Shown here: piece after piece, positions 38,859-58,715 of the stretch
Position numbering within the stretch: the first letter of the stretch is position 1
How the letters are laid out: every line of letters begins with the position of its first letter
DNA from: Sacculina carcini
Lineage: Eukaryota > Arthropoda > Thecostraca > Sacculinidae
Length of the DNA: 64,000 nt
Direction of reading: 5' to 3'
Assembly (NCBI GenBank): GCA_916048095.2
Contig: OU696585.1
Coordinates: forward strand, 5,102,255 to 5,166,254
Notes under the pieces: model-generated
Databases searched by the model: none
Told to the model about the DNA's origin: nothing
What the model saw: only the letters and a program-made list of their open reading frames with translations
Made by a program: the position numbers and the translations under genes

Positions 38859-40945
38859 TTATACGGTTGACTCCGGCTTCACATCCAGCAGTAGATGTCG
38901 TCTGTTGCGTGTCGTTATGCGCCCACTTGGGGTGCGTAGCAGATAGCTACGTCGACCTCGAACGCCGACTATGGTGCCGCTCAGGTCCCATCTCTTGGTA
39001 TCTTGGTTCTGAATCAGCCCAGAATCCCCAACCTTCAACCGGGGCATCAGACGCGATCCACGGTTATACGCCTGTTCGACTTTGTCGCGACACACCTTGT
39101 CGATGTTGTCGGCTCTATCCCTCCATCGGGGGGCGAAAGCGTCGCGATGCATCGGAACTTTTGAACGAATAGGATGACCAGAAAGTATTTCTGCTGGAGA
39201 ACGTCCATCTGCACCTGGCGTGTTCCTTAATTCGAGTAGACCTTCAGTAAATGAGTCGTCATCGAGTTCACCATTCTGCGTCACTTTTTGCACAAGCCGT
39301 TTGACTCTTTTCACGGCCGACTCAGCGTGCCCATTCCCCTGCGGATGTTCGGCACTGATGATGTCGTGCTGCACTTTCCAACATGCGAAGAAGTCTCTGG
39401 TGCGACGAGCTGTTTACTGCGGTCCTCCGTCGCTTCGAAGACGGTTCGGAACGCCATACGCTGCAAACAGCTGCCTCAGACTTTTGACGAGATGTCAAGA
39501 TGATGCATCTGACCGCGGACATTCTGCCACACACGGCCAATTTGACACCTGTCGACATATATAAGGTATGTCCGACTTGCATGCTGAAAGTAGTCTGTTG
39601 AGACACTTTCGAAGACTCTTTCTGGTCTGTCATCACTGTGGTACGGCTCTTTTTGTTGACTGTTGCGGTATCGCAAACACAACTCACACGAGGATACCAT
39701 CATTTATATATCGTTATTCATTGTAGGCCAGTAAACACATTGCCGAGCGCGGTCCATCGTGCGGTTCCTTCCCTGATGTCCTCTGTGCAGCCGTCGAAGT
39801 GTATCACGGCGCATACTGCGTGGAATAACAACACGACATCCGCATAATAGTATATCGCCTTCAATATACAGTTCATTTCTCATGTTCCAAAGTGGTTTGA
39901 CGCAGTCAGAGCATTGATGACAATATTCAGGAAATCCATCCTGTATAGTTTAAAGCAGTGCAATGTACTCTTCATCTTTTGCAGCTAGGTTTGTGACTTG
40001 TGAGAGAAGTAAATCACCGTATGGATTCTCACTATCGTCGTCGTCTACAACGCGAGATATCTGTATAGAACGTTGTCTCGGCGTGAAGTTTTCTTCTGAC
40101 TCGCCGCCGCAGTGAGTTTCGTCTTTGTTGAAGTGCAGAGGTGATCTTGATAGGCAATCTGCAATAACATGTTCTTTGCCTGCTCTCCATACTTTTTCGA
40201 ACTGTAAATGAGACAACTGACTTCTCATTCTCTGCAATCTCGGATTGCTGATGTCCGATATGTACTTCGAATTAAGAATAGGCAGCAACGGTTTGTGGTC
40301 TGTCACCACTGTGAAAGACTTGGCGCCGGCCAGGAAATTATTTGCCTTCTTGCAGGCCCAGACTACTGCTAGCATCTCTTGCTCTATAGCGGCATAGCGG
40401 CCCTCTGTTTCGGTGAGAGACCGTGATCCACATTGGATCAGCTTCCACTGACCATGCTCGTCTTTCTGCCGCACGACAAACCCTATACCATGAAGTCTCG
40501 CCGCGTCAGTCTCTACGATTGTAGGTCGTGTTGGCACGTAAAAATCCAGAACTGGCGGGGACGTGAGCACGCGTTTCACCGCTTCAAACGCCGGTGTGTG
40601 TACATTAGAGTCCCACTGCAATGTCACATCCTTCTTCAACAGTTACCTGAGCGGTGCAGATGCCGCAGTGATATCTGTTGAAAAGTTACTCAATTGGTTG
40701 GCCATACCAAGAAAAGATCTCAGCTCACTCACGTTTATCGGGGTCGGAAACTTGGAAATAACAATTAGTTTCCTATCATCAACTGTGTACTCGTTATTGT
40801 TTATCACAAAACCACAGTATTGCACTTCCGATTTGGCAAAACTGAACTTCTTACTGTTGAGAGTGATTCCATTGTCATGACATCGCTTAGAGCTGTCTCA
40901 CATCGCTTTAGAACTGACAAGACATGTTTCAAGTGTTGATCATAG
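38859..40945 (-). pseudogene. pol: Element E pol, 3' part (end of RT, RNase H, integrase)
   Basis: Minus-strand segments continue from the insertion site. The RT end has LNSKKFSFAKSEVQYCGFVI and SELRSFLGMANQL. RNase H has TIVETDAARLHGIGFVV, EQEMLAVVWACKK and VTDHKPLLPIL. Integrase has CELCLRYRNSQQKEPYHSD, then after frameshifts EHPQGNGHAESAVKRVKRLV with LELRNTPGADGRSPAEIL. The C-terminus is KRWDLSGTIVGVRGRRSYLL. Stops and frameshifts near 39700 and 39374-39560 disrupt integrase. Confidence 0.83.
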
Positions 40946-41235
40946 TGTAGCGACTGCGCCGCGTTCGCGACTGCGCCGTGTGTTTGATTATTACATTGTT
41001 ATTTTATCTGTGTACCATATAGTTTATTTCATCATATCTTCTTATGTGTGTCTCATGTTTGATTGTAAATATCATGCCACAAATCTTTGCATGCATATTG
41101 TGTGACACTGTCACTGTGCTCGATACCCCGCGTCTTCCTTCTTCTTGCTGGCGCGCTCGTAGCACACACATCGTGTCTTCTCGCTGTCGTGTGATATTAA
41201 ACTCGCATCAATTCCTAGTGTTTTTCCACGCTAAA
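40946..41235 (+). repeat. Element C 5' LTR
   Basis: 290 bp, nearly identical to 45576-45865 (one visible difference, CTGTCGTG versus CTCTCGTG). Confidence 0.93.
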
Positions 41236-41236
41236 C

Positions 41237-41255
41237 TGGTGAACCCGACGTGATT
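41237..41255 (+). promoter_or_regulatory. Element C primer-binding site (tRNA-Trp)
   Basis: TGGTGAACCCGACGTGATT starts 1 bp after the LTR. It complements the 3' CCA end of tRNA-Trp with one mismatch (position 7), the primer known for CsRn1-clade elements. Confidence 0.75.
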
Positions 41256-41289
41256 TTGTTTTAGTTTTTGTTTTTTGATTTCGTGAGTC

Positions 41290-42160
41290 ATGCCCAACGA
41301 CACCGCCGCTTTCCCGCACTTAACAGACGGCGAGCCAGTGCAACGCGAAGATGAAGGCGACAACGGCCAACCTGCCACATCATTCCGGCTGCCGCCTTTC
41401 TCGCCCGAGGAGCCAGAACTCTGGCTCACACAGGTGAACTGCGCGTTTGCCGTTTCGGGAATCACTTCACCCGTCAGGCAGTTCCAGTTCTTAGTGGCCA
41501 ATCTGCCGATGGATGTGGCCACAGAGCTGAAAAACGTCATCAGGGGGCCGCCGAATTTTAAACTTTTGTGCGAGAAGCTGACGACGCGCATGGCGCAGTC
41601 ACGAGCTGGACGCCATGCTGCGGCACCAGCATCTGGGCGACCAGAATCCGTCGCAGCTGCTCCGCCGCATGCGAGGGGAGCTCGAAGGGGCCGGTAGCTC
41701 TTCTGTCGACACCGGGCTACTTCGAACCCTGTTTTTACAGCGGCTGCCCAACAACGTCAAGGCGGCAACCTCTTTGCTAACGGGCACGACGTCACTCAGC
41801 GAGCTGGCGGCCGCCGCCGACCGCTTCATGGACGCCACACGCGCCGACCAGCCGCTGGTGTCCGTAGCGGCGGTGCAGTCGACGCACGAGGCAGCCCGCG
41901 GCAGTGCCAGAGCGGATCCGGCTGTGCAGCAGCTGCTCGCCGCCGTTACAGAGCTGACCGCAGCTGTGCGTGAGATGACGACGGCACGCGCACGAGAGCC
42001 GGCACCAGGAGCGTATCGTCGACAGCGCAGCCGCTCCAGAACGCGCTCACCGCCACGCACCGACGAAGCCGACGCCGGTATGTGCTATTACCATCGTGCG
42101 TTCGGCCGCGACGCCATCAACTGCCGCGCGCCGTGCAGCTTCCGGCCGACTTTAAACTAG
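41290..42160 (+). pseudogene. gag: Element C gag (CHCC-type), one frameshift
   Basis: ATG at 41290 starts the frame with FRLPPFSPEEPELWLTQVNC and the capsid-like region typical of CsRn1/Mag-type Gag. Near 41600 the homologous reading moves to another frame (ELDAMLRHQHLGDQNPSQLL), so one base has been gained or two lost. The second part ends with CYYHRAFGRDAINCRAPC. This is the CX2HX9CX3C motif distinctive of the clade. A TAG stop follows at 42158-42160. The overlap with pol is in the -1 direction. Confidence 0.85.
42151..42160 (+). promoter_or_regulatory. Element C -1 frameshift heptamer TTTAAAC next to the gag stop
   Basis: TTTAAAC at 42151-42157 is in phase (gag codons TTA AAC) and is directly followed by TAG. 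After slippage the frame continues TTT AAA CTA into pol without a stop. A GGGC/GCCC hairpin (about 42169-42184) may act as stimulator, though it is weaker than in A and B. Confidence 0.7.
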
Positions 42161-45100
42161 CCGCGCTGGGGCAAGTAGCGCCCGTCTCAGCGACACAACC
42201 ACAGCCGCTGTTGTTCGTCACCGACCTGACCTCCGGCCAGAGTCTGTTGGTGGACACCGGCGCCCAGGTCAGTGTGTGGCCGCGCAGCAGATTGCAACAG
42301 TCAGCCGTGGAGAGCTCCGACAGCACACCGCGGCTGCGTGCGGCGGACGGTCGACCGATCACCGCTCACGGAACGTACCGCGCCACACTGCGTCTCGCCG
42401 GCATGTCGGCCGTCACGTACAAGTGGTGCTTCGTCGTCGCCGACACTCCGACGGCCATCCTGGGTGCCGACTTCCTCGCCAACTTCCGGCTCTCCATCGA
42501 CATGGCGCAGCGGCAGCTCAGTGACGGCTCGTCTGTCGCATTTTCGACGCCACATCCGGCCATAGCGGCGGCGTGTGGTATCATGAGCGTGAACCCCATG
42601 AACTGGGAGCACGTACTGCAGGAGTTCCCGACGATCACCGCACAGCCCGACTTCAACCGGCCGCCGGTACACAACACGGTGCACCGCATCCCGACACAGG
42701 GACAGCCGGTGTACGGCCGCGTCCGTCGCCTCGCACCGGAAAAACTCGCGGCAGTGCGGCGAGAGTTTGACAGACTGCTATCGCTGGGCATCGTCCGACG
42801 CTCGTCCAGCGCATGGTCGAGCCCGCTTCACGTGGTTCCCAAGGCGGACGGTGGTCTGCGAGTGTGCGGCGACTACCGCGCACTCAACGCCATCACCAAA
42901 CCCGACCGGTACCCGGTGCCGTTTCTGCACGACAGCGTCGCCCAACTCGCCGGCTCCACCGTTTTTTCGCGGCTCGACATTATGCGCGCATATCACCACA
43001 TACCTGTCGCAGAGGAGGACGTGCCGAAGACCGCCGTGGTGACGCCGTTCGGCCTCTTTGAGTTTCGCAGGCTGTGCTTTGGCCTGCGGTCTGCCGCACA
43101 AACGTTCCAGCGTTTCCTGGACGAGGCACTTCGGGGCGTCGACGGCTGTTTTGCGTATGTAGACGACATACTCGTGGCCAGCAAGTCGGTGGAAGAGCAC
43201 GAACGACATCTGCGCGCTGTTTTGCAGCGACTCAACGACATCCGAGTGCAGCTCAACGTCGGCAAATGTGTCGTGGGCGTGTCGGAGCTAGACTTCCTCG
43301 GACACCATCTGTCTCACGCCGGGGTGGCGCCCACGGCCAAGAAAGCTGCCGAGGTACAGAGCTTCCCCGAGCCGGACACACAGGCGCAGCTACGCCGTTT
43401 CATCGGGATGGTAACGTTCTACCACCGGCTCATACCGCAGGCAGCCCAACTGCTCGCCCCACTACACGCGCTAATCGACACGAGGACGAAACGTTCACAG
43501 AAGCCGGTCACATGGACGCCGGACGCCCGAGATGCTTTCTCCCGGGCCAAACGAGCACTCACCGACATCGTGCAGCTGGCCTTCCCGGTCACCGGGGCCC
43601 CACTGAGCGTGCAGGTAGACGCGTCCGCCACAGGAGTCGGTGGTGTACTGCACCAGTACGTCGACGGAGTCTGGAGGCCACTGAGCTTCCACTCGCGACA
43701 ACTGACACCGACCGAGAGGCGCTACAGCACGTTCGGCAGGGAGCTGTTGGCCGCGTACAGCGCCGTGCGCCACTTCCGCCACACGCTGGAGGGCCGAACT
43801 TTCACCTTTTTCACCGACCATAAGCCGCTCACGTCAACCATCGGTTCGGGAGCCGACACGTACTCGCCACGGGAGGTGCGCCATCTGGACTACGTGTCAC
43901 AATTCACGTCGGACATCAGACACGTTCCCGGCGAGCAAAACCCAGTGGCCGACGCCCTCTCGCGCACCGTCGGCATGCTGGTCGCTCCGACGCCGCCGTT
44001 CGACGATTTTTCAGCGCTGGCCGACGCGCAACAGGAGGACGCCGACACGCTACAGCTGGTGCAGGCCGCTGACGGGGATCACTCCCTGAAGCTGAGGCAC
44101 GTGCCGCTCGACTGCGGGCGTCGTCTGTGGTGCGACTACTCGACCGGCCGGTGTCGTCCAGTGCTGCCGACGGCACTGCGGCGGCCGTTCTTCAACCTGC
44201 TCCACGACCTCGCACACCCGGGCGTAGCCGCCAGTCAGAAGATGGTAGCCGAGCGGTTCGTGTGGCGCGGACTGAAAAAAGATGTCCAGAGCTGGGTTCG
44301 AACATGCCTTCAGTGTCAACGCGCCAAGACACACCGACACACGAGTGCAGCACCACATGCCTTCCGCCCTCCATCCAGCCGATTCGCCGACCTCCATATC
44401 GACTTGGTGGGTCCCCTGCCGACCTCAGACGGGTTCACGCATATGCTGACGATCATCGACCGCTACACGCGATGGATCGAAGCAATTCCGCTGGCTCGCA
44501 CCACAGCCGAGGATGTCGCGAAGGCGTTGCTGCGACAGTGGATCGCACGTTTCGGGGTGCCCGACTCGATCGTGAGCGATCAAGGTCCGCAATTCGAGTC
44601 GCGGTTGTGGTCCTCATTGATGACGCTTCTGGGTGTCAAGAAGAAGCGCACCACAGCGTACCACCCTCAGGCGAACGGCCTCGTTGAGCGGGCCCACCGG
44701 CAGCTCAAGGCCAGTTTGCGCGCGACCTGCAACAACAACAACTGGACCGACCGTCTCCCGCTGGTGCTGCTCGGCATACGCTCGGCCGTCAAGACCGACA
44801 TCGGGTGCTCCAGTGCGGTACTGGTTTACGGCGAGCCGCTTCGTTTGCCAGGTGAATTGGTGACACCTTCCGCTGCACCGGAATTGTCACCCATCACGTT
44901 TTGTGAGCAACTCAAAGCTGCCATGCATGAGCTTCGCCCGACGCCGCCACGCCAGACACAGCACCAGTCACACGTGCCGCACGCCCTTTGTTCCTGCACG
45001 CACGTCTTTGTTCGTGCCGACGGCCACTCAGGTCTGTCGCCGGTCTACCGCGGACCATTCAGTGTTGCCGAACGCGACGAGAAAACGCTGGCCATCCGAA

Positions 45101-45564
45101 GCGGCGCCCGTCAAACCCGCGTGAGCATTGACCGCTGTATTCCGGCTCACCTGGAACTTACGCCGGGTGAAGACGGGCAATCCCCACACATCAACCGACC
45201 ACCGACACACTGTGAGAGTCCAGGGTCAGACGCGCCAAAGTCCATTCTACGGAGAACCCGTCCGACGGCGTCAACCGTAAAAACGGTGGTGTTCGTCAAC
45301 GCCCCGGTGGTACACTGGATACCGTCACGCCCCGTCCACCAGCAACGGCGCGTCGCGTGTCGGGGACGAAATTTCTACCTCCCACTGCAGCTGAACGTCG
45401 CGACACCGTCACCGACATCCACCGACGCCATCGACCACTCGGCGCCTGCGACGCCGCAGAACGCCTCGGACTCTACAGCGCCGGCGCCACCGCTAGTCAG
45501 AGACACCGTCGTTCATTACACGCGTTCCGGCCGCGTAGTGCAACTGCCGGCCCGCTACAGATAG
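42154..45564 (+). CDS. pol: Element C pol polyprotein, intact
   Basis: About 1136 codons from the slip site to TAG at 45562-45564. Protease has LLVDTGAQVSVWP (about 42250). RT has GGLRVCGDYRALN and FAYVDDILVASKSVEEHERH (about 43150). RNase H has SVQVDASATGVGGVL and FTDHKPLT. Integrase has its HHCC finger (HDLAHPGV and CLQCQRAK) and DDE residues in LHIDLVGPL, IVSDQGPQF and NGLVERAH. The C-terminus is RSGRVVQLPARYR. All catalytic motifs are present, so this enzyme could be functional although gag is frameshifted in this copy. Confidence 0.93.
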   Translation, partial: KLAALGQVAPVSATQPQPLLFVTDLTSGQSLLVDTGAQVSVWPRSRLQQSAVESSDSTPRLRAADGRPITAHGTYRATLRLAGMSAVTYKWCFVVADTPTAILGADFLANFRLSIDMAQRQLSDGSSVAFSTPHPAIAAACGIMSVNPMNWEHVLQEFPTITAQPDFNRPPVHNTVHRIPTQGQPVYGRVRRLAPEKLAAVRREFDRLLSLGIVRRSSSAWSSPLHVVPKADGGLRVCGDYRALNAITKPDRYPVPFLHDSVAQLAGSTVFSRLDIMRAYHHIPVAEEDVPKTAVVTPFGLFEFRRLCFGLRSAAQTFQRFLDEALRGVDGCFAYVDDILVASKSVEEHERHLRAVLQRLNDIRVQLNVGKCVVGVSELDFLGHHLSHAGVAPTAKKAAEVQSFPEPDTQAQLRRFIGMVTFYHRLIPQAAQLLAPLHALIDTRTKRSQKPVTWTPDARDAFSRAKRALTDIVQLAFPVTGAPLSVQVDASATGVGGVLHQYVDGVWRPLSFHSRQLTPTERRYSTFGRELLAAYSAVRHFRHTLEGRTFTFFTDHKPLTSTIGSGADTYSPREVRHLDYVSQFTSDIRHVPGEQNPVADALSRTVGMLVAPTPPFDDFSALADAQQEDADTLQLVQAADGDHSLKLRHVPLDCGRRLWCDYSTGRCRPVLPTALRRPFFNLLHDLAHPGVAASQKMVAERFVWRGLKKDVQSWVRTCLQCQRAKTHRHTSAAPHAFRPPSSRFADLHIDLVGPLPTSDGFTHMLTIIDRYTRWIEAIPLARTTAEDVAKALLRQWIARFGVPDSIVSDQGPQFESRLWSSLMTLLGVKKKRTTAYHPQANGLVERAHRQLKASLRATCNNNNWTDRLPLVLLGIRSAVKTDIGCSSAVLVYGEPLRLPGELVTPSAAPELSPITFCEQLKAAMHELRPTPPRQTQHQSHVPHALCSCTHVFVRADGHSGLSPVYRGPFSVAERDEKTLAIRSGARQTRVSIDRCIPAHLELTPGEDGQSPHINRPPTHCESPGSDAPKSILRRTRPTASTVKTVVFVNAPVVHWIPSRPVHQQRRVACRGRNFYLPLQLNVATPSPTSTDAIDHSAPATPQNASDSTAPAPPLVRDTVVHYTRSGRVVQLPARYR

Positions 45565-45575
45565 GGGGGAGGTGG

Positions 45576-45865
45576 TGTAGCGACTGCGCCGCGTTCGCGA
45601 CTGCGCCGTGTGTTTGATTATTACATTGTTATTTTATCTGTGTACCATATAGTTTATTTCATCATATCTTCTTATGTGTGTCTCATGTTTGATTGTAAAT
45701 ATCATGCCACAAATCTTTGCATGCATATTGTGTGACACTGTCACTGTGCTCGATACCCCGCGTCTTCCTTCTTCTTGCTGGCGCGCTCGTAGCACACACA
45801 TCGTGTCTTCTCGCTCTCGTGTGATATTAAACTCGCATCAATTCCTAGTGTTTTTCCACGCTAAA
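45576..45865 (+). repeat. Element C 3' LTR
   Basis: 290 bp, preceded by the polypurine tract AGGGGGGAGG and followed by ATAG. Confidence 0.93.
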
Positions 45866-51539: not shown

Positions 51540-53037
51540 ATTGTCTGTCTGTGCCTTCGTCGTGAGTGGATGTGTGTTTCTTAGCTGCGTGGCCTGTGGA
51601 TTTTTTGTGTGACTATTCTTCTCCGTCCTTGATTGTTATCAGACCGTTGGTGAATCGTCCCTTCTTCCTCACTCGCTCTGCCTTCTACGCCAGTCTGCCC
51701 TGTTAGACTCTTCTTCTCATTCTTTGTCACGATGTCAACCCAGCCCACACAATGTGGTTGTGTGGGCTGTTTATTCTCTAAATCACTTTCTATCTCTCCA
51801 ATATCTGGTCTTATACCTCAATGCTCCTCATTTGAATTCCTTGCTCTCTTTCTCACCGTTTCCTCTTTTTCTAAATTCTGATTATTGATTATGTACCGCT
51901 ATAATCATCCTGGTACTGCGCCTACTTTCCTTGACGAATTCCATCCTCTACTTGGAGCTGTGTGCTCCTTATTATCTAGCAATTTTCTTATACTTGGTGA
52001 CTTTAATTTCTGGGTCGATTCTCCTTCTAATAATCCATACTATACCAGTTTATTATCCTTACCCAATTCCAATGGTCTTTCAGTTGCTTATTCGTCTACT
52101 CATATATCTAGACACTCCCTTGATCTATTTATTTCTTTCACTCCTGTGCTTTCTTCCGATCGCCTTCTCCCTGATGTCCTCATTCTGCCTCCTGATAATA
52201 ATATTTCTGGTCACAGTCTCTTAATTTCAACATTACATTTCGTTCATGCTCCTGCTCCGACTCCTACTCCTCCCCTAACAGTTCGATTATCATATATCTG
52301 CATCTCTTCCTCTTGACCAGCCTTATTGGATCTCACCATGTGACATCATTCCTGCTTTTTTCTGTCCTCTCTTATATTGATGATTTTCTGTTTCCTTTAA
52401 TTACCCGAACGGCTCCACCTTCTACCTCTACTTGGTCTTCTCGTCTTATTCGTAACTTAAAATGTGGTCCGCGTCGAGCGCATTTATAATCGTTCTCGCT
52501 CATCTCATGACTGGAATAATCTCTGCTCCTCTCGATCCACTTTGGTCTCAGCTTCTAATGCTGCCAAACAGGAATTTGACAAGTTTAAACTCGATTCTTT
52601 TTCCCGCTCTCCTAAATCCCTCTAGTCTTCCTTAAGCTCCCTATGTAATATTCGTTCTCCTTCCTCTTCCTGTTCTCTATCAGCATCGCAGTTCTCAAAT
52701 TTTTTCTCTGCTAAAATGTATTCTGTTCTGTCTAACGTTCCTCCCGCTCTCTCAACTCTCACATACCACTTCCTCTCAATCTCTCCCTTCGTTCGCACTC
52801 CTCAACCTATCGTACATTGTTTCTCTATTATCCAAAATCAGGGTCTCCCAATCCCCTGCTGACTGTGTTAACTTTCGTGCAATTCACGAATCTCTTCCTT
52901 CGCTTGCTCCTTACTTCCTTCATCTTATCAATTGCTCTTTTCTTCATGACATATTTTTGGCAGATAAACACGCTACTGTTCGTCATATTTAAAAAAAAAC
53001 ATACACTTGATCCTACTGTTCTTCGCAATTATCCCCC
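51540..53037 (+). mobile_element. L2-like LINE, 5' part (host of element D)
   Basis: Endonuclease segments MYRYNHPGTAPTFLDEFHPL, LILGDFNFWVD and ISGHSLL, then a broken linker and the start of the RT (HTLDPTVLRNYPP). Element D splits the LINE in the NYRP motif. It resumes at 57128 with ISLLSLPSKLIERAI when one copy of CCCCC is removed. The coding frames are degenerate. Confidence 0.82.
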
Positions 53038-53235
53038 TGTGGTATATTTCATTTGTATTGGTTGAGCAATAGTGTGGTATAGTTGCGCTCGTGTGACTAT
53101 TGAACTGTTACGTTTCCGCTTGTGTGATGTTGTGGAGTTGTTCTTTGTGTAGTTAAGCGTCAATATAATCATTCTAGTATTCCTTGTATCATTCTAATTA
53201 TAATCACTCGATCATTCTAATCTTGATACGTTGCA
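53038..53235 (+). repeat. Element D 5' LTR
   Basis: 198 bp, identical to 56925-57122. Contains GTTCTTTGTGTAGTTAA at 53140-53156, the predicted RNA 5' end and self-primer. Confidence 0.95.
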
Positions 53236-53236
53236 A

Positions 53237-53253
53237 TTAACTACACAAAGAAC
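53237..53253 (+). promoter_or_regulatory. Element D self-complementary primer-binding site
   Basis: TTAACTACACAAAGAAC, 1 bp after the LTR, is the exact reverse complement of LTR bases 53140-53156. In Tf1/sushi elements the RNA 5' end folds back onto such a site and is cleaved to become the primer. No TGG-type tRNA site is present. Confidence 0.75.
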
Positions 53254-53265
53254 TTTGTTATTGTG

Positions 53266-56200
53266 ATGGAAAAATATCTGAAACCAGATCGTCTGTCAGT
53301 TGAGCCAAACGCTCCTGATTCAACACAACAGTGGTTGCACTGGAAAAATACGCTGGACAATTTTCTTTATGCCATACAAGCCGACGAGACGAGCAAACTG
53401 CCGCTGCTTGTAAATCTGGTGAGTCCTGAAGTGTTCCGGTTCATAGCAGAGTGTAGCACATTCAAAGCGGCCATCGATGAGCTTCAGTCATTATATGTGA
53501 AACCGAAGAATGTTGTGTTTTCGAGGCATCAGTTGGCCGCGCGCAGACAGACGTCCAATGAAAGTGTGGACCAGTATATACAAACACTGAGAGAACTGGC
53601 CAAAGACTGTGGATTCATCTCTGTTGACAGCAATACATATCGGAGCGAGTACATTCGAGACGCTTTTATCAGGGGATTGTCGTCAGACGAAATCAGACAG
53701 CGCCTGTTGGAAACGTCGGATCTAGATCTGGAGAAAGCAGTCAGTCTGGCTAGATCTCTTGAGTTGGCGAAAATCAACTGTGGTCAGCTTCAGTCGATGC
53801 CGCTTTCTGTCGCGGCGCTGCATGAAGTCCGAGATGAGCGATCGAAACAGCAGTCTGCTGAGCAAGAGGAATTCAGTGAAGAAGTCGTTGCGGCCGCCCG
53901 AAGAGCCGATCGTGCGCCGCCGGATCGTAAAGTTCAGTCCTGCTGGTTCTGTGGAGGTGAGCGTCATAGTCGGCGATATTGTCCAGCCCGCAACGTAGTC
54001 TGTCGCCAATGCCAAAAGACAGGACATTATGCCAAGATGTGTCGAGGACAAAAATCAACTGCGTCAGCGACAGTGCACAGTCTGGCAGCGACAAAATCTT
54101 CAGCAGCCGTGCCCAGTGATCTGAGGAAGTCTACTATGTATGTATGGTTGAATGAACATCATCAGCTGGATGCACTAGTGGATACCGGGAGCTCTGTGAG
54201 TTACATTTCTCAATCAGTTGTCTCAAGACTCAGAGTTAAAACAACACCATGCCAAGAAAGAGTGTCCATGGCGTCTATGTCGCTGACTTCAAAAATAGAA
54301 AGAAAATGTGTAGTGAATCTACTTGTCCAAGGGAAAATGTACAACGATGTGGAACTATTGGTGATGCCTAAACTCTGTTCAGACATAATAATGGGGCACG
54401 ATTTTTTGAGACGACATAAATCTACAGAAATCCAGTTCGGAGGAGATTTGCCACCACTAGTATGTGGTCTGTCAGCGGTGAAACTCTCGCAGGCGCCGCC
54501 CCTCTTCAATTTGGGAAATCACGTACGGCCAATTGCGACAAAATCTCGTCGGTACACCATGGAGGAAAGAGCTTTCATCAAGTCCGAGACTGACCGCTTG
54601 CTGAAAGAAGGGATTATAGAGCCGTCTGTATCACCCTGGCGAGCTCAGGTAGTCGTCATCTGCAGTGACCAAGGAAAAAAGAGGATGGTGATCGACTACT
54701 CCCAAACAGTGAATAAATTCACTCTACCCGACGCGTACCCTCTTCCAAACATTGAGGAGACTGTGGAAAACATCGCCCAGTATCGATTCTTCAGCATGAT
54801 TGACTTAAAAAGTGCCTATCATCAGGTGCCGATTGCCGATAGTGATAAGCCTCTCACAGCCTTTCAGTCAGGAAATCAACTGTATCAGTTTCGACGAATT
54901 CCCTTCGGAGTTACCAACGGTGTGGCGTGCTTCCAAAGATTCATTGATGATTTCATTCGCGAACATGAGCTACGCGGCACTATTGCTTACTTGGATGATA
55001 TCACAATAGGTGGAGCCACTCGAGAAGAGCACGATGAAAACTATGAAAGATTCATAAAGGCGGCAGAAAAAGTTGGACTGACGTTCAATCATGACAAATG
55101 TCAAGTAGCTGTGAAAGAAATCAAAGTTCTTGGTTACCTCGTATCGGGTGGTTTTGTTCGACCAGACCCATCTAGACTGCAGCCGTTGAAGGATATGCCG
55201 TTACCACGTAATCGAAAGACCTTGTTGCGAACTGTGGGATTATTCTCATACTACTCTAAATGGATTCCCTGTTTTGCTGAGAAAATAAAGCCACTGATAA
55301 ATTCTGAGTTCCCGCTTAGTGAGTCAGCAGTTACGGCCTTTGAGAATCTCAAGGATGTGATAGCGGAGGCAGCGCTACAGGCCATCGAGCCCGGTGTTCC
55401 GTTTGTTGTAGAAACGGATGCATCCGATGGAGCAGTCGCTGCCACTCTCAGTCAAAACAACCGTCCTGTTGCCTTTTATTCTAGAACGTTATCAAAGTCA
55501 GAATATCATTGGTCTTCGGTGGAGAAGGAGGCGCTGGCCATAGTCGAAGCCGTGAAGCGATGGCGGCATTATCTTTGTGGCAGAAGATTTTCACTCGTCA
55601 CAGATCAGCAGGCGGTATCTTTTATGTTCAATCAGACGCAGCATTCTAGGATCAAGAATCTTAAGATTCTCCGTTGGCGACTTGAGCTCTCAAACTTCGG
55701 CTATGACATCGTGTATCGCCCGGGACGGGATAACGCTTCTGCAGACGCGCTTTCTCGTAAGTACTGTTCTGCTATCACTCAGTCTGATCTGGCAAAAATT
55801 CACACTGATCTTTGCCACCCTGGAATAACTAGAATGTATCATTTTCTCAGAGTAAAAAATATTGCGTGTTCGATTGAGGATGTAAAAGCAGTGATTCGTT
55901 CATGTCCTGTGTGTGCTCGTTGCAAGCCGAGGTTTCATAGACCGGTTTCACAGTATCATTTAATCAAAGCTACGCAGCCCTTTGAAAGATTAAGCCTCGA
56001 TTTCAAAGGTCCATTGCCCTCTGCTAATAGGAATAGGTTCTTTTTAACAATAGTTGACGAGTTTTCTCGTTTTCCATTCATTTATCCATGTGCCGACACT
56101 AGTGCGAAAACTGTCATTGCTTGTTTGGGCCATCTATTTTCGATTTTCGGATTACCCGCATTCATTCATTCCGATAGGGGATCAGCATTCATGTCCAGTG

Positions 56201-56856
56201 AATTAAAAGATTTCCTATCATCGCGTGGGGTGGCTACTAGCCGTTCTACAGCTTTTCATCCGCAAGGGAATGGACAATGCGAAAAGTACAACGATACGAT
56301 TTGGAAAAGTCTTGTGTTGGCCACTCAATCTAAGGGGTTGGACATTAGCAACTGGCAAGATGTTATGTGCGATGCTCTTCATTCTATTCGGTCCTTATTG
56401 TGCGTGTCAACAAATTGTACGCCTCACGAGAGAATGTTTTCGTTTACGCGTAGATCTAGTGTGGGCCCATCTATTCCATCGTGGCTAACTGAAGCTAAAC
56501 GTGTGTACTTGAAAAATCACAATAAGCATTCGAAGTATGATGAGTCTGTGGATCAGGTTGAACTACTGGAAGCAAATGACAAATATGCTTATGTGAGGTT
56601 CAAAGGAGGTCGAGAAACAACTGTGTCCACTAGAGATCTCGCTCCATGTCCGGAAGATCAGCCCAACGTTGAGAGATTGGCAGGTGATAACAGTAGTCAG
56701 GTGGGTGAAGTCAATGAGCCCACTCAGCAAACAAATGTCGAAACTCCTCCATGCGAGGTACAGTGTGAAGTCGCTGACCCAGCTCCATCTCCAGTAGTTC
56801 AGCTGAGACGGTCGAGTCGAGTTAGGAGACCACCAGCTCGTTATCGCGATGAATGA
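53266..56856 (+). CDS. gag-pol: Element D gag-pol polyprotein, intact
   Basis: ATG at 53266 to TGA at 56854-56856, 1196 codons in one frame with no frameshift. Gag has zinc knuckles CWFCGGERHSRRYC and CRQCQKTGHYAKMC (about residues 227-265). Protease has ALVDTGSSVSYIS. RT has MIDLKSAYHQVPI and IAYLDDITIGGATREEHD. RNase H has VVETDASDGAVAATL and TDQQAVSFMF. Integrase has HTDLCHPGIT, CPVCARC and DDE residues in LSLDFKGPL, IHSDRGSAF and NGQCEKYND. The C-terminus is basic (RRSSRVRRPPARY). Gag-Pol stoichiometry must be set without ribosomal frameshifting, as in Tf1. Confidence 0.94.
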   Translation: MEKYLKPDRLSVEPNAPDSTQQWLHWKNTLDNFLYAIQADETSKLPLLVNLVSPEVFRFIAECSTFKAAIDELQSLYVKPKNVVFSRHQLAARRQTSNESVDQYIQTLRELAKDCGFISVDSNTYRSEYIRDAFIRGLSSDEIRQRLLETSDLDLEKAVSLARSLELAKINCGQLQSMPLSVAALHEVRDERSKQQSAEQEEFSEEVVAAARRADRAPPDRKVQSCWFCGGERHSRRYCPARNVVCRQCQKTGHYAKMCRGQKSTASATVHSLAATKSSAAVPSDLRKSTMYVWLNEHHQLDALVDTGSSVSYISQSVVSRLRVKTTPCQERVSMASMSLTSKIERKCVVNLLVQGKMYNDVELLVMPKLCSDIIMGHDFLRRHKSTEIQFGGDLPPLVCGLSAVKLSQAPPLFNLGNHVRPIATKSRRYTMEERAFIKSETDRLLKEGIIEPSVSPWRAQVVVICSDQGKKRMVIDYSQTVNKFTLPDAYPLPNIEETVENIAQYRFFSMIDLKSAYHQVPIADSDKPLTAFQSGNQLYQFRRIPFGVTNGVACFQRFIDDFIREHELRGTIAYLDDITIGGATREEHDENYERFIKAAEKVGLTFNHDKCQVAVKEIKVLGYLVSGGFVRPDPSRLQPLKDMPLPRNRKTLLRTVGLFSYYSKWIPCFAEKIKPLINSEFPLSESAVTAFENLKDVIAEAALQAIEPGVPFVVETDASDGAVAATLSQNNRPVAFYSRTLSKSEYHWSSVEKEALAIVEAVKRWRHYLCGRRFSLVTDQQAVSFMFNQTQHSRIKNLKILRWRLELSNFGYDIVYRPGRDNASADALSRKYCSAITQSDLAKIHTDLCHPGITRMYHFLRVKNIACSIEDVKAVIRSCPVCARCKPRFHRPVSQYHLIKATQPFERLSLDFKGPLPSANRNRFFLTIVDEFSRFPFIYPCADTSAKTVIACLGHLFSIFGLPAFIHSDRGSAFMSSELKDFLSSRGVATSRSTAFHPQGNGQCEKYNDTIWKSLVLATQSKGLDISNWQDVMCDALHSIRSLLCVSTNCTPHERMFSFTRRSSVGPSIPSWLTEAKRVYLKNHNKHSKYDESVDQVELLEANDKYAYVRFKGGRETTVSTRDLAPCPEDQPNVERLAGDNSSQVGEVNEPTQQTNVETPPCEVQCEVADPAPSPVVQLRRSSRVRRPPARYRDE

Positions 56857-56924
56857 ATGAATGAATGTTTTATGAATGAATGAATGTTTTTTTGTGCTGC
56901 TATATTGAAATTGGATGGGGAGAT

Positions 56925-57122
56925 TGTGGTATATTTCATTTGTATTGGTTGAGCAATAGTGTGGTATAGTTGCGCTCGTGTGACTATTGAACTGTTACGT
57001 TTCCGCTTGTGTGATGTTGTGGAGTTGTTCTTTGTGTAGTTAAGCGTCAATATAATCATTCTAGTATTCCTTGTATCATTCTAATTATAATCACTCGATC
57101 ATTCTAATCTTGATACGTTGCA
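56925..57122 (+). repeat. Element D 3' LTR
   Basis: 198 bp identical to the 5' LTR; preceded by the polypurine-rich GGATGGGGAGAT. Confidence 0.95.
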
Positions 57123-57127
57123 CCCCC

Positions 57128-58715
57128 TATCTCACTCCTCAGTCTTCCTTCTAAGCTAATTGAGCGCGCCATTTTCCTTAAACTCTCACCTTACATATGC
57201 CAATTCCTTGATCCTTGTAAATCCGGTTTCCGTTCCTCTCATTCTATAGATCAGTCTCAGATCTATATATCATATAGATCTATAGATCTATAGATCATTC
57301 TAGTAATCAGTCTTAATTTCAATTTGTAATGAGGTTTTCTTTCACTTCCCGTCGCTCGGTTCTGCTTGTTCTCCTTGACCTGTCTTCTGCCTTCGATCTC
57401 GTAAATCATTCCATCTTCGTTCGTGATCTTGCTTCCCTTGGTGTTACTTCCACTGCTCTTTCCCTCCTCCAATCTTATATTGATGGTAGAAGCTACTCTG
57501 TTAGTTTCAACGCCTCATCTTCTGATCCACTTAGTCTACGTTCTGGGGTTCCACAGGGTTCTGTTCTTGGTCCCTTATTGTTTAATCTATATATGTATTC
57601 TCCCTGTCCTATTTTTCGTCAGCATTCCATTCAAGGTCTACCCTGATGACATACAATTCCTTCTTCCACTTCCACTTGATCAATCATCGTTTCACTCTGA
57701 CTTACTCTCTGAAATTTCCTCCTGGGCTACCTCTAGTCAACTATTTCTAATCACCTCTAAATCTGAATTTCATGTCTTTCACCCTCCTCGTCTCTCTCCA
57801 CCACTCCTTCCTTGACCATTTCTTCCTCTGTTCGCAATATTGGTGCTATATTTGTTTCATCTTACTCATTCTCGGACAATATCACCTCTGTTGCTCGCAC
57901 TTGCCGTCTTATTCTACGTTATCTCTATCCTATTTGTCCATTTATTGATAGATACTCTGCTGTCAGCCTTATTCATGCCCTCATATTCTCTAAATTTGAC
58001 TACTGTAGCTGTCTATACTATCATGTTCCTCGTTCTCATCTCAAAGTTCTTCAACGAGTTCTTAATCAATGCTGCCGCTTTGTCTTTCATCCTATTCCAT
58101 GTCGTCATACATCTCATTTCCTCTTCCAGCTCCGTTGGCTTCCTATTATCCCTCGAATACACTATCGTCTATGTTGTCTTATTCACAAACTTTTTCATGA
58201 TCCTCATCAACCTTCCTACCTCTCTGATATTCTCACTCCCACTGCTTCTTTTTATTCTCGCCGCCACCTTCCTCTTCACTGTCCTCGTGTAGCCAACGAG
58301 TCTCCCTGGTCCTCAAAATCAATGTTCCTCTTTGGTCCTCGCCTCTATTACTCTCTTCTTACTCATATCACCGCTTCTTTGTCCCTCAACTGTATTTATT
58401 ATCAGCTTCGTCAATATCTATTTGCCCTCTCTTTTGACTCTGTTTCTCACTCACTCACCCATTCCATTCGCCACTTTGTAAATACTCTAATGCGTATATA
58501 TTTTTCTGACTCGGTCATTATTGCTGGCTTGTTCTGTTCCCGGTGCACAGTCAATTCTTGTCTTTTATCTTCCATATTTTTATTTTTACAGTCTTACTGG
58601 TATATTCTTTATCATGCATGTCTGATCGTCAAATTCTGATTTTGTGTGATTTGTTTTGCCATTCTTACTTATGGTGCCCCATGTGTATGTGTGTATGTTT
58701 GCTTATGTATGTGTG
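57128..58715 (+). mobile_element. L2-like LINE continued: RT and C-terminus
   Basis: Continues the LINE split by element D. Segments are SLLSLPSKLIERAIFLKLS, then an AT-rich GATCTATA expansion (57245-57310) that breaks the frame. Next are LLVLLDLSSAFDLVNHSIF, LRSGVPQGSVLGPLLFNLYM and, after a frameshift, the C-terminal 57812-58450 frame (IFSKFDYCSCLYYHVPRSHL, QLRWLPIIPRIHYR). Degenerate by frameshift. The 3' UTR is interrupted by a CR1 fragment and resumes near 59230. Confidence 0.82.

Follow-up and report, generated by a model that had tools for sequence, protein, structure and literature searches.

A Ty3/gypsy-type retrotransposon of Sacculina carcini predicted to prime reverse transcription with RNA from its own LTR

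Self-priming of reverse transcription is known from the Tf1/sushi chromoviruses and, by prediction, from the TAR lineage of Ty1/copia elements. In Tf1, bases 1-11 of the RNA anneal to the primer binding site (PBS), and the RNase H cut falls between bases 11 and 12 (PMC7175516). Members of the Tf1/sushi group carry a chromodomain and can form a structure of three duplexes (PMC10085805), and the same is described for the member Tj1 (PMC4600332). The plant elements Tcn1 and TAR are predicted self-primers (PMC6317226). The CsRn1-like elements of animals have a tRNA-Trp PBS, a CHCC Gag and target site duplications (TSDs) of 4 bp, and some of them have a single fused ORF (PMC2582038). For Skipper and SM-Tcn1, both chromoviruses, no PBS of the tRNA type is reported, and the authors found no complementarity to the LTR (PMC5006619, PMC2864245). 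It has also been suggested that self-priming could be ancestral (PMC3601003).

The window analysed here is a stretch of 64,000 nucleotides from the genome of Sacculina carcini (contig OU696585.1, positions 5,102,255 to 5,166,254 of the forward strand). Element D, a Ty3/gypsy-type LTR retrotransposon, occupies positions 53038-57122 of the window. Its features are as follows.

53033 to 53037, no strand: left TSD, CCCCC, with the right copy at 57123-57127; low complexity
53038 to 53235, forward strand: 5' LTR of 198 bp, TG...CA, 100% identical to the 3' LTR
53140 to 53156, forward strand: proposed self-primer GTTCTTTGTGTAGTTAA, exact reverse complement of 53237-53253, with covariation across families
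53236, forward strand: single A separating LTR from PBS; the relatives read likewise have A here, except L120 with T
53237 to 53253, forward strand: primer binding site TTAACTACACAAAGAAC, exact reverse complement of LTR positions 53140-53156
53266 to 56856, forward strand: single gag-pol ORF with Gag, two CCHC knuckles, protease, RT, RNase H and integrase
56910 to 56924, forward strand: polypurine tract ATTGGATGGGGAGAT, directly before the 3' LTR (56925)
56925 to 57122, forward strand: 3' LTR of 198 bp, with a second primer copy at 57027-57043 and no PBS after it

An earlier, sequence-only reading of the window had claimed a single fused gag-pol ORF, and the frame indeed runs from stop to stop over 53227-56856, with the first ATG at 53266 and 1196 aa counted from that ATG. 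The domain order of protease, RT, RNase H and integrase is that of Ty3/gypsy elements (Metaviridae), and the best PDB match of the RT-RNase H region by sequence is Ty3. Gag has two CX2CX4HX4C motifs, and its match to zf-CCHC scored below the Pfam cut-off. No chromodomain was detected in the D integrase (Pfam, E<=0.01), and none in seven C-terminal pieces at E<=1, namely the last 170 aa of D and pieces of 84-92 aa from 6 relatives. G-rich tracts resembling the D polypurine tract are present in relatives. The 3' flank of D at about 57330-57610, as read by eye, resembles the RT of a degraded non-LTR retrotransposon, and from this flank D seems to be inserted in an old LINE.

We consider it very probable that D is a recently active Ty3/gypsy-type element which primes minus-strand DNA synthesis with RNA encoded in its own LTR. 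One base past the LTR, positions 53237-53253 form an exact 17-nt reverse complement of LTR positions 53140-53156, and the match ends at both sides, where the next bases are T/T and G/A. This perfect match had been noticed from the letters alone, and it stands out against 5000 dinucleotide shuffles, in which the longest match was 13 nt (2 of 5000). When the comparison was placed at random in the real window 20000 times, a match of 17 nt came up 4 times, about as often as we estimate such placements to hit D itself, and matches of 13-15 nt also came up 4 times. The absence of a TGG-type tRNA site was claimed as well and is confirmed at the PBS position of D; the first TGG past the LTR lies at 53267-53269, overlapping the start codon.

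Like the Tf1/sushi elements (S. pombe, fungi, vertebrates, and Tcn1 of mosses), D has no TGG PBS, its PBS adjoins the LTR, and this PBS is complementary to the element's own LTR RNA; with Tf1 it also shares the single ORF. Unlike the Tf1/sushi elements, neither D nor the 6 relatives whose C-terminal pieces were searched gave a chromodomain match, and because of this we do not regard D as a member. Of the Tf1/sushi self-priming architecture proposed earlier, the mechanism is therefore retained, given the compensatory changes across families described below, and the lineage is not. The D duplex was also said to be longer than the Tf1 primer, which is correct: PMC7175516 gives 11 nt for Tf1, compared with 17 nt in D and 13-18 exact nt across the families, except for C12a with 9 exact nt followed by a G-U pair. 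TAR and Tcn1 share predicted self-priming through the complementarity of the PBS, but TAR is a plant Ty1/copia lineage and Tcn1 is a chromovirus, whereas D is Ty3/gypsy-like, with the integrase after RNase H and no chromodomain found. The CsRn1/Boudicca clade resembles D in its gypsy-type pol and, in some members, in the single fused ORF. In contrast to that clade, D is without a tRNA-Trp PBS, has two CCHC knuckles instead of CHCC, and has a TSD of 5 bp (of low complexity). Since no chromodomain was detected and the marks of CsRn1 are missing, D is placed in neither group. Skipper of Dictyostelium and SM-Tcn1 are similar to D in having no tRNA-type PBS, but they are chromoviruses, and the authors describing them detected no LTR complementarity.

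The window contains another gypsy-type element, element C (40945-45865), with identical LTRs of 291 bp and an RT that is 32% identical to that of D. Its LTR is followed by the TGG-type sequence tggtgaacccgacgtg, which is loosely like the tRNA-Trp PBS of CsRn1-like elements, and, as far as the script read this element, no stretch of at least 6 nt at this place matched the LTR. Element C is taken as a tRNA-primed comparator.

A DNA search with D in the host genome (264 Mb, 43 contigs) gave at least 45 matches, with 40 of 48 candidates scored. For the D family, 28 loci were aligned and recounted by script, comprising 22 5' ends (the window copy included) and 6 3' LTRs. Both arms of the match are exact in 19 of the 22 5' ends. 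In L007 the last PBS base has changed from C to T, which leaves a G-U pair, in L016 the primer is short of one base, and in L009 the PBS is truncated. The primer is also kept in 5 of the 6 3' LTR loci, with one change in L024. The spacer between the arms measures 80, 57 or 37 nt, and 74 nt in the rearranged copy L010; that is, the arms are kept while the spacer length varies. Some copies (L019/L020 and L021/L022) look like duplicates of one insertion. A survey of copies for compensatory changes had been proposed, and within the D family it found conservation only, because the family is too young; the compensation was found across families.

The RT search of the host genome gave at least 105 matches, with 104 of 6354 first-look candidates scored. 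Twenty-five matches belong to the D family (at least 86% identity), and 80 others fall in steps of 78-80, 56-59 and 52-56%. From these 80, we picked 40 relatives (52-80% RT identity) non-randomly so as to spread over the identity steps, and fetched both ends for 20 and 5' pieces for 20 more. An LTR stretch complementary to the PBS was found in 34 of the 40 (18 of 20 in the first set and 16 of 20 in the second). The positives of the first set include C12a with its one G-U pair, C35b, where the primer is intact only in the 3' LTR, and C16a and C31a, which are without an LTR pair. In the second set, the exact match is 13 nt or longer in 15 positives; one of these, L140, has a single mismatch as well. 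The remaining positive, L123, has one mismatch within 16 nt. There are 15 distinct primer sequences in the host genome, D counted, and 2 more from outside contigs, and no TGG occurs in any of the printed PBS sites of the relatives. The predicted self-priming layout is common to at least 15 families in the host genome.

As for the other relatives, pairing was not seen in C22b and C35a, for which there was no LTR pair. In a tree of 19 RTs, with 4 of 16 inner branches well supported and two comparators too distant to act as root, C22b groups with C1a and C35a with C4a, and both C1a and C4a do pair. The motif was not found in L133 and L138, and L135 has the primer, with the PBS absent from the fetched piece. 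In L132 (G000:C9:3516547-3517447, minus strand), the PBS-like TTTAACCATACACG lies past a possible LTR end, with no LTR match within 200 nt. TSDs were evaluated in 16 relatives with LTR pairs by a script allowing shifted borders. The duplication was 5 bp long in 12 of them and 6 bp long in one, two had none, and the sole 4-bp case is C16b, which has wrong LTR borders and whose best blastn match was another repeat.

No relatives were found in viral contigs. A scan of contigs of other genomes with the RT alignment found three contigs encoding relatives, all filed under bacterial genome bins.

L119, JAAESD010000556.1: RT 57% identity, D-like layout with 14 nt TATTGTTGATTAAA, contig ends overlapping by 145 bp
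L120, JABSRZ010000027.1: RT 54% identity, D-like layout with 13 nt TAATGTAATAAAA, contig ends overlapping by 155 bp
L121, JABSRZ010000026.1: RT 21% identity, distant, contig ends overlapping by 626 bp

No such repeat of 12 nt or more was found in L121 by script. The end overlaps suggest collapsed or circular assemblies and eukaryotic contamination, and we infer that L119 and L120 are eukaryotic contamination in bacterial bins.

A matrix of each PBS against the LTRs showed that the PBS fits the LTR of its own family better than any other in 14 of 17 rows. The exceptions are C12a and C36a, which tie with other LTRs, and C35b, which fits the C36a LTR better than its own 5' LTR; they are explained by the LTR boundary (in C36a the blastn boundary overshot the PBS) and by the 3' LTR. 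For the covariation set, we used 14 families, 12 from the host genome and 2 from outside, with C35b, L140 and L141 left out. The families were lined up on the 3' end of the primer and on the first base of the PBS, and pairs were counted from these two anchor points because a global MAFFT alignment of the leaders was uninformative. Positions 1-14 are Watson-Crick pairs in 193 of 196 cells, and at least two types of standard pair are found at 12 of the 14 positions, only positions 1 and 2 being invariant. When each PBS is combined with the primers of other families, the mean pairing is 62% at positions 1-14 and 51% at positions 7-14. None of 50000 permutations of the PBS among families matched the observed pairing; as copies and families share ancestry, the counts are non-independent and the permutation figures are not strict probabilities. 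The contrast between own and other PBS is large despite this shared ancestry. Further out, positions 15 and 16 pair in 7 and 8 of the 14 families, and over positions 15-20 as a whole the pairing is at background level (25 of 84, compared with 32% across families). Self-priming is, on this comparison of sequences, strongly supported by compensatory changes across families.

The mechanism we propose would run as follows. The genomic RNA would start at about 53140, and its first 17 nt would fold back onto the PBS at 53237-53253, a duplex backed by the sequence and by the covariation. By analogy with Tf1, the RNase H of the element's own RT would cut after 53156, and the freed primer 3' end would be extended across A53236 into U5. 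In the family-wide version, RNase H would free a primer of about 13-18 nt and synthesis would begin one base outside the LTR. In each new copy, the PBS is probably restored from the primer sequence, and such rebuilding would keep the arms matched within a family. The RNA start at 53140 and the cut after 53156, both already put forward in the earlier reading, are predicted positions; they are consistent with the junction in L010 and with the fading of pairing past about 14-17 nt.

The sequence of the expected product is fossilised in that copy, L010 (G000:C26:6471300-6471580). Its 5' LTR is normal up to the primer end, is then followed by TTGCAACGTATCAAGATTAGAA, and then resumes with U5. These 22 nt equal the predicted extension product of the primer on the PBS. 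The presumed 3' LTR of L010, which is normal, lies on the same strand at a distance of 3.9 kb, and the RT enclosed by the two LTRs is intact. At least once, then, a polymerase has elongated this primer on its binding site, either during cDNA synthesis or when a DNA template was later switched within the inverted repeat.

In predicted folds of 13 leaders (those other than C12a, C35b, L140 and L141), 12 form the full duplex and C2b forms 15 of its 16 pairs, with z from -2.3 to -5.7; each leader was trimmed so that the primer came first, a choice that favours the duplex. The predicted cut falls at A|GC in 14 of 17 families, at A|AC in C4a and C12a, and at A|TG in L120. A motif of the type TTTCAG, TTTTCAG, TTTACAG or TTCACAG precedes the primer by 8-15 nt in C1a, C4a, C36a, C10a and C35b and is absent in other families. 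It could be initiator-like or 3'-splice-site-like, and with a YAG motif at this distance in several families the transcript start could be earlier.

A small hairpin is possible directly 3' of the cut in 12 of 14 families (CCTA-TAGG, ACCTT-AAGGT, TGG-CCA), the two without it being D and C22c. Its mean score is 5.08, compared with 2.52 in letter shuffles, of which 0 of 5000 scored as high, and, as read by eye, it appears in only 7 of the 13 leaders when these are folded at minimum energy. The hairpin could present the cut site to RNase H. An extra helix beside the primer, possible in these 12 families, is a likeness to Tf1 with its three-duplex structure (PMC10085805). The difference is that in these families the hairpin would be local, whereas Tf1 forms duplexes with the PBS flanks in its pretzel; the fold of D itself has a weak extra helix.

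The position of the primer end is a further difference from Tf1. In 14 of 17 families, the primer 3' end falls on, or one base past, a hexamer of the poly(A)-signal type, AATAAA or ATTAAA. The primer ends with AATAAA or AATAAAA in 13 of them (e.g. L063, L071, L081 and L097) and with ATTAAA in L119. The hexamer is lacking in D and its sister family fam2, which end in GTTAA, and in L141, which ends in TATAAA. It is possible, although we hold it somewhat doubtful, that the primer:PBS duplex doubles as a poly(A) switch, the hexamer being hidden in the 5' LTR and free and used in the 3' LTR. If so, one helix would both prime reverse transcription and block premature polyadenylation, and D, its sister family and L141 would need another solution.

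LTR-encoded RNA might instead prime in trans, supplied by an independent short transcript of the LTR, by the copy in the 3' LTR or by another genomic RNA molecule. Pairing alone fits cis and trans alike, the 3' LTR has a copy of the primer too, and the primer end coincides with the hexamer in most families as described. Nevertheless, the pairing stops at a short and similar length, as expected if the RNA 5' end limits it, the leaders fold in cis in silico, and Tf1 uses its own 5' end (PMC7175516), so that we regard priming in trans as improbable. It is far less probable that the inverted repeat is kept for another role, such as a DNA cruciform or an integrase or transcription signal, with a host RNA as the primer. 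Any inverted repeat whose structure matters would covary whatever its job, but in the elements read one arm starts 1 nt past the LTR end, which is the PBS position, and a TGG-type sequence stands near this place in element C and not in D or the printed relatives. AT-rich inverted repeats do occur, but a chance match in one element is refuted by the shuffles (0 of 5000 above 13 nt), by the 34 of 40 relatives with pairing and by the covariation.

Priming of D and its relatives by their own LTR-encoded RNA thus remains the preferred reading. In a literature search that covered mostly titles and the beginnings of abstracts, with subscription journals thinly covered, we recognised no description of self-priming in a gypsy element without a chromodomain. 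If a diverse gypsy clade with no detected chromodomain self-primes, the mechanism either arose again or was lost elsewhere, and it does not mark one lineage. Due to their rewritten primers, the many families form a natural covariation set for the primer length, the cut site and the helper hairpin. Finders of PBS sites that rely on tRNA matches would probably miss such elements. Finally, self-primed elements need no tRNA primer and so should escape the tRNA-fragment defences that act at the PBS (PMC7472051).
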